DNA from: Candidatus Zixiibacteriota bacterium | Lineage (GTDB): Bacteria; Zixibacteria; MSB-5A5; GN15; JAAZOE01 | NCBI GenBank assembly: GCA_030668485.1 | Contig: DAOUTW010000012.1 | Span: forward strand, 1-64,000 | Direction of reading: 5' to 3' | Length of the DNA stretch: 64,000 nucleotides | Shown here: positions 3,006-7,743 of the stretch, piece after piece | Layout of the letters: the number at the start of each line of letters is the position of its first letter | How positions within the stretch are numbered: the stretch's first letter is position 1 | The notes under the pieces: generated by a model | Told to the model about the DNA's origin: nothing | Databases searched by the model: none | What the model saw: only the letters and a program-made list of their open reading frames with translations | Position numbers and translations under genes: made by a program

Positions 3006-4049
3006 ATGCCACTCAAAATCGGAAATGTGGAATTGTACATGGGGCCCGATAATCTCGGTGGCGATGATCTCGAAACCCCGATTATCGATTTTATCAACGG
3101 TGCGAAAAAATACCTCGACATCGCCGTTCAGGAAATCGACAACAAAAAACTGGGTGAAGCGATAGTCAGGGCTCGCCAGAGAAACGTGCTGGTAAAACTG
3201 GTGCTCGAAGCCGATTACCTGCGAGCCAAAACCAGACAGGCCGCTCCCTGGGTTCCGGGCGGGTCGCATGAAGTCAACCGAGAAATTCAAAACGCGATCC
3301 TGCGTACCAAAGCACACGTTCATTCCGATTTCAATCCGCAGATCTTTCATCAGAAATTCGTCGTCCGCGATCGCGAGGAGGTTCTGACCGGGTCGACCAA
3401 TTTTACCGATACCGGGACGCATAAAAACCTCAATAATGTTATAATCGTCCGCGACAAGGATATCGCCATGCAATACTGGCGGGAGTTCAAGGAGATATCC
3501 AAAGGACGGTTCGGAAAAGACAGCGAGATGCATCCGGACGTCCCGAAAATTCATACAGTCTCCAACCTTTATGTCAAGGTCCTGTTCGCTCCCGATCATA
3601 ACCCTGAAATGGAAATAATGAAGCAGATGGCCAAGGGGAAGAAACGGATCGACTTTGCTATCTTCACTTTTTCCAAGTCATCGGGTATCGACGATCAAAT
3701 GGCGGCCATGATGAGGGCGGGAGTCAAGGTTCGCGGAATTCTGGAAGTGAGACAGGGGCGTCAAAAATGGGCGCCATTCAAAGATTTGAAAAAGGAGGGC
3801 GCGGAATTATATCTGACTGGCAGCCATCCCGGCCTGGGCAAACTACACCACAAACTGATGATTATCGACAAGCAGGTGGTCATCCTGGGAAGCATGAATT
3901 TTACCGGTCCGGCGACAAAATTGAATGATGAGAACATATTGGTAATCGGTCAAATGGGCGCCACCGGTGCACAAAAGACGGCACAGGAAAAATTTGCCCA
4001 ATATGCATATGATGAGGTCGATCGGATAATCAAGAAATTCAAAGCCTGA
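3006..4049 (+). CDS. Phospholipase-D-like protein with two HKD motifs
   Basis: The start at 3006 follows CAGGAGG at 2994-3000. The 347-residue protein has two HxK(x)4D motifs, HQKFVVRD (His115, Lys117, Asp122) and HKLMIID (His281, Lys283, Asp288), each followed by the usual GS.NFT. Both halves of a PLD active site are therefore present in one chain. No signal peptide or membrane segment is visible, unlike cardiolipin synthases, so a cytoplasmic nuclease or phosphodiesterase (Nuc/BfiI type) is more likely than a lipid enzyme. It lies 167 bp after a NUC1 nuclease gene. Confidence 0.85.
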   Translation: MPLKIGNVELYMGPDNLGGDDLETPIIDFINGAKKYLDIAVQEIDNKKLGEAIVRARQRNVLVKLVLEADYLRAKTRQAAPWVPGGSHEVNREIQNAILRTKAHVHSDFNPQIFHQKFVVRDREEVLTGSTNFTDTGTHKNLNNVIIVRDKDIAMQYWREFKEISKGRFGKDSEMHPDVPKIHTVSNLYVKVLFAPDHNPEMEIMKQMAKGKKRIDFAIFTFSKSSGIDDQMAAMMRAGVKVRGILEVRQGRQKWAPFKDLKKEGAELYLTGSHPGLGKLHHKLMIIDKQVVILGSMNFTGPATKLNDENILVIGQMGATGAQKTAQEKFAQYAYDEVDRIIKKFKA

Positions 4050-4123: not shown

Positions 4124-5242
4124 GTGGATACGGATAGAAATATATTTATCGCCGATATGCATTGCGATACGGTCATGCAAATGCGCCGCGGCTATGATAT
4201 TTCACAACGGCATGATACCTATCATATAGATATTCCCCGGCTGAAACAGGGGGGCGTCGGTTTGCAGGTTTTCGCCTGTTCTCTCAACCCTTTCGTAAAA
4301 GATGATCGTCCGGTGGATACCATTGATGCGCAACTGGATGTACTTCACTCTGAAATAGAAAAGAATGCTGACTCCCTGGATATTTGTCATAATTCGGCTG
4401 AGGTACGAAAAACTATTGATGAAGGTAGAATAGCGGTCGTAGCAGCGCTGGAAGGGGGCGAACCGCTGGAGAACGATCCGGCAAGAGTTAGATATTTCTA
4501 TGATCGCGGCATCCGGTTGATCACCATCGCTCATCAAAGACCCCCGGGATGGTGCACCACCTGGAATGAGCCGGGTGAAGAAACGGACGGTCTCACAGAT
4601 CTCGGATATCAGATGATAGAGGAGATGAACCATCGTGGAATAATCGTCGATTTGTCTCACAGTTCTCGAAACACCTTCCGGAAAGTAATCGAGGCATCAC
4701 GGGCGCCGGTGGTTGCCTCACATTCCTGCGCCGACAGCCTCAGTCCCACGGAGAGAAATCTCACCGACGAACAGATCAAAGCTATCGCTGAAACCGGAGG
4801 CGTGATCGGCGTTAGTTTTATCAATTTTCTGCTTACTCCTGATTTTAATCAACCGGATCGAAAATTCTGGGAAAATCATGCTGTCGAAGGTGAAGAATTG
4901 AAATCACTGTTCGTATCCGCCATTCCTGAAGAAGAGAAGGAGAAGAAGTGGGCGGAGCATGATGATCTGTTTTTGCAGCAGGCAAAAATCCTGGCCGATG
5001 TTATGCCATCAGTCAAAACGGTCGTCGAACATATCGACTATATCTCGAATCTGGCGGGTTACGAACATATCGCCATCGGTTCCGATTTCGACGGTGCTTT
5101 CCCGATGCCGCATGGTCTCGAGGACTGCTCCCGAATGCCGAATCTTATTGAACAATTATCAAGGCGCGACTATTCCGACGGAGATATTGAAAAAATTATG
5201 GGTAGTAACTTCTTGCGGGTCATGACCGAGATCTGCGGATAA
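4124..5242 (+). CDS. Membrane dipeptidase-type peptidase (M19)
   Basis: GTG start at 4124 behind AAAAGGAG. The 372-residue protein matches the renal-dipeptidase family (M19), TIM-barrel zinc enzymes that hydrolyse dipeptides including D-amino-acid ones. Visible zinc-ligand regions are HCD (His13, Asp15), ALEGGEPLE with Glu110, DLSHSS with His179, VASHSCADSL with His200, and GSDFDGAF near the C-terminus. No signal peptide is seen. It stands alone, 74 bp after the PLD-like gene and without an obvious operon partner. Confidence 0.92.
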   Translation: MDTDRNIFIADMHCDTVMQMRRGYDISQRHDTYHIDIPRLKQGGVGLQVFACSLNPFVKDDRPVDTIDAQLDVLHSEIEKNADSLDICHNSAEVRKTIDEGRIAVVAALEGGEPLENDPARVRYFYDRGIRLITIAHQRPPGWCTTWNEPGEETDGLTDLGYQMIEEMNHRGIIVDLSHSSRNTFRKVIEASRAPVVASHSCADSLSPTERNLTDEQIKAIAETGGVIGVSFINFLLTPDFNQPDRKFWENHAVEGEELKSLFVSAIPEEEKEKKWAEHDDLFLQQAKILADVMPSVKTVVEHIDYISNLAGYEHIAIGSDFDGAFPMPHGLEDCSRMPNLIEQLSRRDYSDGDIEKIMGSNFLRVMTEICG

Positions 5243-5359: not shown

Positions 5360-6274
5360 ATGATAGTCCGCAAAATCGTCTTCTGGAATTGGTCTCTCAT
5401 TATAGGACTGTTACTTATAGGCTCCGCTGCCATCGCTGACCGCCCCCCCGAATGCAAATATTGCGGCAAGAAAATAACAGGGCGATACATCGTCAGCGAG
5501 GGGTATAACTACCATGTAAAATGCTACGAAAACCATATAGCTCTACGCTGCGCCCTTTGCGGAGGGATCATAAATGATGAGTATTTTGAAGATTTCTGGG
5601 GCAATACGGTCCACTCCAAACACAAGGGCGAAGTTCCTCAGTGCGAATATTGCCGGAGGTTCATCTCGGATGAAATATCCAAAGGGGGAGTAGAATACGA
5701 TGATGGGCGAAAAGTCTGCGGTATTTGCCGTGAGCATGCAGTCGACGATGTCGCCTATGCGGAGGCGGTCAAAACCAAGCTCACGAAGACACTGAAAGGT
5801 CAGGGGATTGATATCGTCGGGGTAGAGGTTCCTCTTTATCTCGTCAATAAGAGTACGATGACCGAGCTATCGGCCGGATCTCATGCCGATCCGCTCGGGT
5901 TCACTCACTATGAACAGACCAGCTATGCCGGCGGAATTATTGCCGAGAGATCGTTCAAGATTTACATGCTCAACGGCCTGCCCCGCTTTGAATTCATAAG
6001 CGCTCTGGCACATGAACTTATGCATGTTTGGATGTTCACCAACGCGCCCACCGATATCGACCCGGTCCTGCGCGAGGGAAGCTGCAATTATGCCGCCTTT
6101 TTAATTATCAGGAATTATCCCGATAAGGAGGCTAGGTTTGTGGTCGATAACATGACGTCCGACCCCAATCCGGTCTATGGTGAAGGGTTCCGGCGAGTTA
6201 AAAAGTACGTTGATCGCCATGGCGTCTCCAAATGGCTGGAATACCTGAAAAGCAATAAATATCCCCCGTGGTAG
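5360..6274 (+). CDS. Exported LIM-domain/DA1-like zinc metallopeptidase
   Basis: The 304-residue protein has a signal peptide (about 1-26), then LIM-like zinc modules: C32/C35 with H52/C55, C64/C67 with H85/H88, then C95/C98 and C120/C123. The C-terminal half contains SALAHELMHVWMF with HELMH at 218-222 and a downstream LREGSCNY with Glu239. This arrangement (LIM, then HE.MH.W, then EEG.C) is the hallmark of the DA1-like peptidase domain best known from plant DA1 ubiquitin-activated peptidases. In a bacterium without ubiquitin the target must differ; export suggests an envelope substrate. The ribosome-binding site is weak. Confidence 0.8.
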   Translation: MIVRKIVFWNWSLIIGLLLIGSAAIADRPPECKYCGKKITGRYIVSEGYNYHVKCYENHIALRCALCGGIINDEYFEDFWGNTVHSKHKGEVPQCEYCRRFISDEISKGGVEYDDGRKVCGICREHAVDDVAYAEAVKTKLTKTLKGQGIDIVGVEVPLYLVNKSTMTELSAGSHADPLGFTHYEQTSYAGGIIAERSFKIYMLNGLPRFEFISALAHELMHVWMFTNAPTDIDPVLREGSCNYAAFLIIRNYPDKEARFVVDNMTSDPNPVYGEGFRRVKKYVDRHGVSKWLEYLKSNKYPPW

Positions 6275-6440: not shown

Positions 6441-6513
6441 TTTTCGGTGTCGGATGATATATCATATTGTATGCAGGAGAAAATTTAATAGTCTATTTAT
6501 CTGGAGGGGCAAC

Positions 6514-7743
6514 ATGTTTAAATTGTACGCTGTAATATTCACGGTCCTGATACTGTCGATTCCGGTGGCGGCTCAGGACTGTGTGGAGTGCCACAAGGAG
6601 GTCACACCCGGTATTGTCGGCGATTGGCAATTAAGTAAACATTTCGAAAACGATATCACCTGTTCCGAATGTCATGGTGATGGTCACACCTCGGCAGACG
6701 ACGTCTCCAAAGTCACGCTGCCGACTCCCAAGGTCTGCGCTCAATGTCATGACACCCAGGTAGAGCAATATACCAGGGGTAAACACGCCGCCGGATGGGC
6801 CTCTTATAAAGCGATGCCGACGACTCATCAACTGCCGCTGGCTTTGCGGGAAGGGATGAAAGGATGCGGTGGCTGCCACAAAATCGGCCTGAAATCGGAT
6901 GAAGATATTAAGCAATTGAAAGAATCAGGCTCCGGCTTTGGCGTAGCCGCCTGTGACGCCTGTCATACCCGGCACCTGTTCTCAGTTAAGGAAGCTCGCG
7001 AACCTCAGGCCTGCCAGACCTGCCATATGGGCTTCGATCATCCCCAGTGGGAAATGTACTCATCGTCCAAGCACGGCGTTCGCCACCGGCTGAAACAAAT
7101 AGGGGCGTTGCCTGAATCGAGCGCCGCTCCCACCTGTCAAACCTGTCATATGCAGGACGGCAACCATGAAGTCCGTACCGCCTGGGGATTCCTGGCCGTC
7201 AGGCTGCCATTGCCAGAAGATCCGCAATGGAAAGCCGATCAGGTAACTATTTTGCAGGCGCTCGGTGTTTTAGACCCGGAAGGGAATCCGACCGCCCGAC
7301 TGGATGTTGTCAAAGCTGCCGATGTCGCTCGTCTCGACCAGGAATCGTTTGATCGTGAGCGCAACAAAATGCTTGCCACCTGCAGCGAGTGTCATTCGGA
7401 AAACTTCGCCAGAGAAGAAATGGCCAAAGGCGATAATATGATTCGCGATGCCGACCATCTGCTGGCCCAAGCGATCAGGGAAATTGCCGCTTTGTACAAG
7501 GAAGGCGTTCTACCCAAACCGGAATCGTATGCTTATCCCTTCCCGGATCTGTTGACCTTCCACGACGCGCCGACAACGATTGAGCAGCGCCTGTTCGAAA
7601 TGCACCTCAAACATCGGATGCGCGCCTTTCAGGGGACTTTCCATGGCAACCCCGATTATGCTCTTTGGTATGGTTGGAGTGAGATGGTCCGTGATCTGTC
7701 TGAAATAAAGACGATGGCCAAAGAATTGCGCCACAAAAATTAA
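6514..7743 (+). CDS. Octaheme cytochrome c, hydroxylamine oxidoreductase (HAO)-like
   Basis: ATG at 6514 follows GGAGGGG and begins a signal peptide (MFKLYAVIFTVLIL..AQ); a longer reading from 6454 lacks these features. The mature 409-residue protein has eight CxxCH haem motifs (CVECH, CSECH, CAQCH, CGGCH, CDACH, CQTCH, CQTCH, CSECH). HAO-family landmarks include CQTCHMGFDHPQWE..SSKHG and the C-terminal HGNPDYALWYGW. The family includes hydroxylamine or hydrazine oxidases and nitrite-reducing members. Which one this is depends on the P460 tyrosine cross-link, which I cannot place with certainty. Periplasmic. A CRP/FNR-type box upstream suggests control by redox state or nitrogen oxides. Confidence 0.85.
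   Translation: MFKLYAVIFTVLILSIPVAAQDCVECHKEVTPGIVGDWQLSKHFENDITCSECHGDGHTSADDVSKVTLPTPKVCAQCHDTQVEQYTRGKHAAGWASYKAMPTTHQLPLALREGMKGCGGCHKIGLKSDEDIKQLKESGSGFGVAACDACHTRHLFSVKEAREPQACQTCHMGFDHPQWEMYSSSKHGVRHRLKQIGALPESSAAPTCQTCHMQDGNHEVRTAWGFLAVRLPLPEDPQWKADQVTILQALGVLDPEGNPTARLDVVKAADVARLDQESFDRERNKMLATCSECHSENFAREEMAKGDNMIRDADHLLAQAIREIAALYKEGVLPKPESYAYPFPDLLTFHDAPTTIEQRLFEMHLKHRMRAFQGTFHGNPDYALWYGWSEMVRDLSEIKTMAKELRHKN

Follow-up and report, generated by a model that had tools for sequence, protein, structure and literature searches.

The window, a stretch of 64,000 nucleotides of the Candidatus Zixiibacteriota contig DAOUTW010000012.1, encodes an ordinary, poorly studied member of an already known bacterial family of DA1 relatives. 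The product, translated from an ATG start (Table 1), is most likely a Sec-exported zinc metallopeptidase of the LIM/DA1 family, whose fingers bind or position the substrate or hold the enzyme inactive. In plants DA1 controls seed and organ size; it is latent and activated by ubiquitin, and its regulation is thus hard to study. A compact bacterial relative that has the same finger-plus-peptidase core, and in which no ubiquitin-interacting motif (UIM) was found, could reveal what the fingers alone do for the peptidase, and it offers an example of LIM-type fingers borne by proteins whose site of action seems to be extracytoplasmic.

Table 1. Features of the DA1-like peptidase gene, in window positions; invariance refers to the 30-row family alignment.
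Feature	Residues	Position	Strand	Evidence
Whole ORF, probable exported LIM-like/DA1-like metallopeptidase	1-304	5360..6274	+	304 aa; PF12315 53 bits; single copy in genome (DA1-like profile search)
Export-type N-terminal segment, likely Sec signal peptide or anchor	1-26	5360..5437	+	hydropathy 2.6 over 12 residues; helix 2-24 in model; AIA|D junction read by eye
LIM-type double zinc finger (C32/C35/H52/C55 and C64/C67/H85/H88)	32-88	5453..5623	+	PF00412 21.0 bits, below cut-off 22.9; Foldseek match PINCH1 LIM4-5; Cys ligands invariant
Third zinc site, LIM-like half (C95/C98/C120/C123)	95-123	5642..5728	+	four Cys invariant in 30 rows
DA1-like gluzincin peptidase domain	129-304	5744..6271	+	PF12315 positions 82-128 and 172-211; structural match to M1 aminopeptidases (2.7 A, 151 residues; Z 12.2, below ~13, which can be common for mostly helical models)
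HELMH, catalytic zinc motif	218-222	6011..6025	+	H218, E219 and H222 invariant
EGSC; E239 probable third zinc ligand	239-242	6074..6085	+	E239 and G240 invariant; 16 residues between H222 and E239

The preliminary description had recognised LIM-type Cys/His pairs joined to HELMH and a downstream EG.C, and all of these elements are present in the translation. An alignment of 30 of the 35 extracted family ORFs (L009, L011, L032, L033 and L034 were left out) shows nine invariant finger residues, C32, C35, C55, C64, C67, C95, C98, C120 and C123, and in the peptidase part invariant H218, E219, H222, W224, E239, G240, Y273 and G276. This conservation, together with a DA1-like (PF12315) match of 53 bits against a curated cut-off of 25 (E 4e-14), argues that the layout is not a product of chance. 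The match falls in two pieces of the 213-position profile. The LIM profile scores just under its curated cut-off, and the two zinc sites of the double finger are separated by a linker of 8 residues (C55 to C64), longer than the canonical LIM spacing.

Throughout the family the two profiles occur together. PF12315 is matched by all 30 alignment rows and exceeds the cut-off in 30 of 30 further homologues (lowest score 28.7 bits), while the LIM profile gives an E of 0.01 or lower in 27 of the 30 rows (9.4e-20 at best) and is above the cut-off in 26 of the 30 further homologues. A Pfam scan of the window protein at E up to 1 showed no UIM, and none was among the 25 Pfam families listed for the alignment, both being searches in which short motifs can be missed. 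The window protein had no match in NCBIfam, and its phmmer search of solved structures returned chance zinc-finger matches only. The profile of the family alignment, searched against the same kind of target, found eukaryotic LIM proteins, and among the 60 matches listed only the finger part of the profile was involved.

The structure predicted by AlphaFold2 from the 30-row alignment (mean pLDDT 94.1, pTM 0.84) contains a double zinc-finger LIM fold. Foldseek returned two matches at E up to 0.001, both of them LIM domains, the better being PINCH1 LIM4-5 (E 5.3e-4, probability 0.99); no viral structure matched the model at the same threshold. For residues 129-304, VIA-align gave the M1 aminopeptidase ERAP2 (6ea4) with a Z of 12.2, under the value of about 13 below which, as the tool cautions, matches can be common for mostly helical models. 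The remaining rows comprise angiotensin-converting enzymes, ACE2, clostridial collagenase H, one putative lipoprotein and one putative hydrolase; apart from the last two entries we take all of these to be gluzincins. The fold is thus shared with M1-type gluzincin aminopeptidases (ERAP2, IRAP), although the window protein, with its HExxH-x16-E arrangement, has no sequence match to them in the Pfam scan or by phmmer. As modelled, the HELMH peptidase domain has a gluzincin (clan MA) fold with a distal Glu ligand. The two contrary outcomes named in the preliminary description, a model lacking the LIM fold and HELMH placed in another peptidase clan, were not seen, and its assignment to a bacterial DA1-like LIM metallopeptidase agrees with the PF12315 score and both predicted folds.

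Bacterial DA1 relatives with LIM-like fingers, and the relation of the plant and bacterial proteins, are already in print: in Dong et al. 2017 (PMC5322733), which cites Burroughs et al. 2011, the C-terminal region of the DA1 family is described as highly similar to predicted Roseiflexus proteins, and the LIM-like domain is termed ancient. The same paper gives the active-site motif of plant DA1 as HEMMHx15EE, reports that changes of its His residues abolish cleavage and that peptidase activity is lost when a Cys of the LIM-like domain is changed, and states that the protein carries UIMs. A 2024 paper (PMC11143343) describes interaction in yeast of a DA1 fragment comprising the LIM and peptidase domains with the substrate WUSCHEL. 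Like plant DA1/DAR, the window protein has LIM-like Cys/His pairs N-terminal to an HExxH...E peptidase domain, and its DA1-like score is over the cut-off. It differs in the export-type N-terminus, in the split Pfam match, in lacking a detected UIM, and in having R238 where the HEMMHx15EE motif has the first E of its pair. A difference in spacing between the published x15-EE and the x16-E of this clade was considered and rejected, as the last Glu occupies the same place in both. The Roseiflexus proteins, compared here by their published description, likewise join LIM-like CxxC/H pairs to a DA1-like C-terminal region but belong to another phylum. No purified member of the bacterial family was found in the literature searched, whose coverage leaves out most subscription journals.

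The first 26 residues of the window protein are basic and then hydrophobic, in keeping with the export proposed in the preliminary description, and the protein is probably sent out of the cytoplasm, judging from this segment. A hydrophobic stretch (12 residues with a mean hydropathy of at least 2.4) precedes the first CxxC in 63 of the 75 homologues with complete 5' ends. Among 385 neighbouring ORFs at least 150 residues long, 104 have such a stretch within their first 45 residues; the span measured differs slightly between the two counts. Twelve of the 75 homologues failed this test, some having no N-terminal extension. Eight of them look cytoplasmic (two from Nitrospirota, three from Spirochaetota, and one each from a cyanobacterium, Fusobacteriota and Bacteroidales); of the others, L105 and L116 are borderline, L121 has a cut start and L126 is a fragment. 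On a quick tree of the family, where eight rows are labelled as not exported, the export label switches four times or more. An extracytoplasmic location would be unusual for Cys-rich fingers, which counts against this reading. Prokaryotic LIM domains are reported, by Burroughs and colleagues in 2011, to be partners of membrane-associated peptidases.

From these features we infer that the protein binds zinc, cleaves proteins and is exported, and what its fingers do. The signal peptide would carry the protein across the inner membrane. Three structural zinc sites, predicted in the LIM-type double finger and the LIM-like half finger, would lie N-terminal to the gluzincin domain, in which the fold and the invariant residues suggest that the ligands of the catalytic zinc are H218, H222 and E239, with E219 as the general base. 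Most likely, protein substrates are bound or positioned by the fingers, or the fingers keep the enzyme inactive until they are engaged, and the enzyme may then cut extracytoplasmic proteins by limited proteolysis. That the fingers probably bind the substrate or gate the active site is suggested by analogy with plant DA1, in which the LIM-like part is needed for activity. Switching-on through UIMs, as in DA1, is unlikely, since no such motif was found in the window protein or in the alignment.

The fingers might instead form a redox or zinc switch, by which oxidation or loss of zinc in the periplasm turns the peptidase on or off, the protein being a stress-responsive latent protease. Three complete Cys-rich zinc sites with invariant Cys residues in an apparently exported protein would suit such a switch, as would the loss of plant DA1 activity on changing a LIM-like Cys (Dong et al. 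2017, PMC5322733). Invariant fingers are, however, equally expected for plain structural zinc, and we regard the switch as doubtful. A broader scenario, about as speculative, would have a widespread extracytoplasmic family of bacterial LIM-peptidases whose fingers are sensors of redox state, zinc or misfolded proteins for a latent peptidase, with eukaryotes later taking up a related, probably non-exported member and putting it under ubiquitin control as DA1. The reading preferred here remains that of fingers which bind the substrate or gate the active site.

The homologues from Zixibacteria and Latescibacterota (among loci L004-L050 and L052-L131) reach 47% identity to the window protein and have the same finger and peptidase residues, but most contain an additional canonical LIM1, located between the N-terminal segment and the part in common with the window protein. 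In the 30-row alignment this N-terminal LIM1 is kept by most relatives and is absent from the window copy, an absence that the preliminary description overlooked. The missing LIM1 and the LIM score below the cut-off could be taken as signs of decay into a degenerate or inactive remnant. This is very improbable: the ORF is intact, the catalytic residues and Cys ligands are all kept, the model is of high confidence (AlphaFold2 mean pLDDT 94), and the L022/L066 homologue of another genome likewise lacks LIM1 yet has an intact ORF. On one Zixibacteria chromosome (L009:1450-2325 / L121:3950-4825) the homologue frame starts inside LIM1 and has no signal peptide, which may reflect a frameshift or a sequencing error.

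The preliminary description called LIM domains rare in bacteria, which overstates the case. A protein search found the family in 37 of 98 genomes, including that of the window, and within the window's phylum 40 of 132 genomes gave a match to the DA1-like profile, 37 of them over the cut-off. Elsewhere the counts of the profile are lower: 14 of 386 genomes in the phylum of a cyanobacterial locus, 2 of 198 in that of a Nitrospirota locus and 1 of 8 in that of an Eisenbacteria locus; a control set of 14 well-known genomes contained none. A scan of named genomes yielded 100 relatives. The 80 loci retained belong, by title, to 17 phyla, besides some rows without a class: Zixibacteria, Latescibacterota, Ignavibacteriota, Calditrichota, Fidelibacterota, Spirochaetota, Cyanobacteriota, Nitrospirota, Thermodesulfobacteriota, Bacteroidota, Chlorobiota, Eisenbacteria, Krumholzibacteria, Electryoneota, Verrucomicrobiota, Fusobacteriota and Pseudomonadota. 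Since almost all of these relatives come from metagenome bins, an isolated odd phylum may reflect a binning error. In two relatives of the same class, L044:688-1788 and L049:685-1785, a long series of different CxxC fingers precedes the DA1-like domain, and the tree places both at a distance from the main family. One cyanobacterial bin (RYN_339) encodes three DA1-like paralogues (L088, L116 and L123), of which two show no detectable match to the LIM profile.

The DA1-like profile, presumably derived for the most part from plant proteins, was used as a stand-in for plant sequences in ranking 31 bacterial proteins, namely that of the window together with 30 picked for spread from the 80 named loci. 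The highest scores belong to an Eisenbacteria (L120, 76.6) and a Nitrospirota (L080, 68.1) protein, which by this measure look more plant-like than the window protein, and the lowest to L128 (28.7). The window protein, with 53.0, is 13th and is therefore not especially plant-like. The tree comprises the window protein, 76 of the 80 named loci, L044 and L049; L115, L124, L126 and L130 were dropped as short, and L072 and L119, which have a stop inside the match, were entered up to the stop. Zixibacteria are strongly clustered on it, with 4 changes where shuffling gives a mean of 17.6. As 36 of its 76 inner branches are open, the tree was used only for a loose placement among Zixibacteria: the window row falls there with weak local support and in no starred set, which speaks against a recent acquisition by the lineage. 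The preliminary description had suggested that the gene might be either an ancestral form of DA1 or an acquired one. These bacterial sequences lend support to neither, given the mid-range score and the several homologues elsewhere that lack an export segment on the one hand, and the grouping with Zixibacteria, its weak local support included, on the other. That plant DA1 descends directly from the bacterial form seen in the window, or that this form came from a eukaryote, is scarcely credible: the common LIM-like and DA1-like layout and the reported plant-bacterial similarity are outweighed by the middling rank of the window protein, its place among Zixibacteria, the breadth of the family in bacteria and the UIMs of plant DA1 (both plant statements from PMC5322733), which were found neither in the window protein nor in the alignment.

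Clustering of 471 neighbouring ORFs from 81 loci revealed no conserved operon partner. The largest cluster covers 10 loci, several of which are closely related contigs, and three of the seven window neighbours had any match, each to one other locus; a conserved partner was rejected because the clusters are small and the window neighbours matched single loci. Directly downstream of the peptidase gene lies a gene for a multihaem cytochrome (6454-7743; Multi-haem_cyto, E 3e-24), and upstream one for an M19 membrane dipeptidase (4124-5242); neither matched a neighbour in any relative's locus in the 81-locus clustering. Upstream of both the dipeptidase and the peptidase genes, a DNA/RNA non-specific endonuclease gene (1847-2839, E 3.2e-27) adjoins one for a PLD-domain protein (3006-4049, E 2.3e-44).
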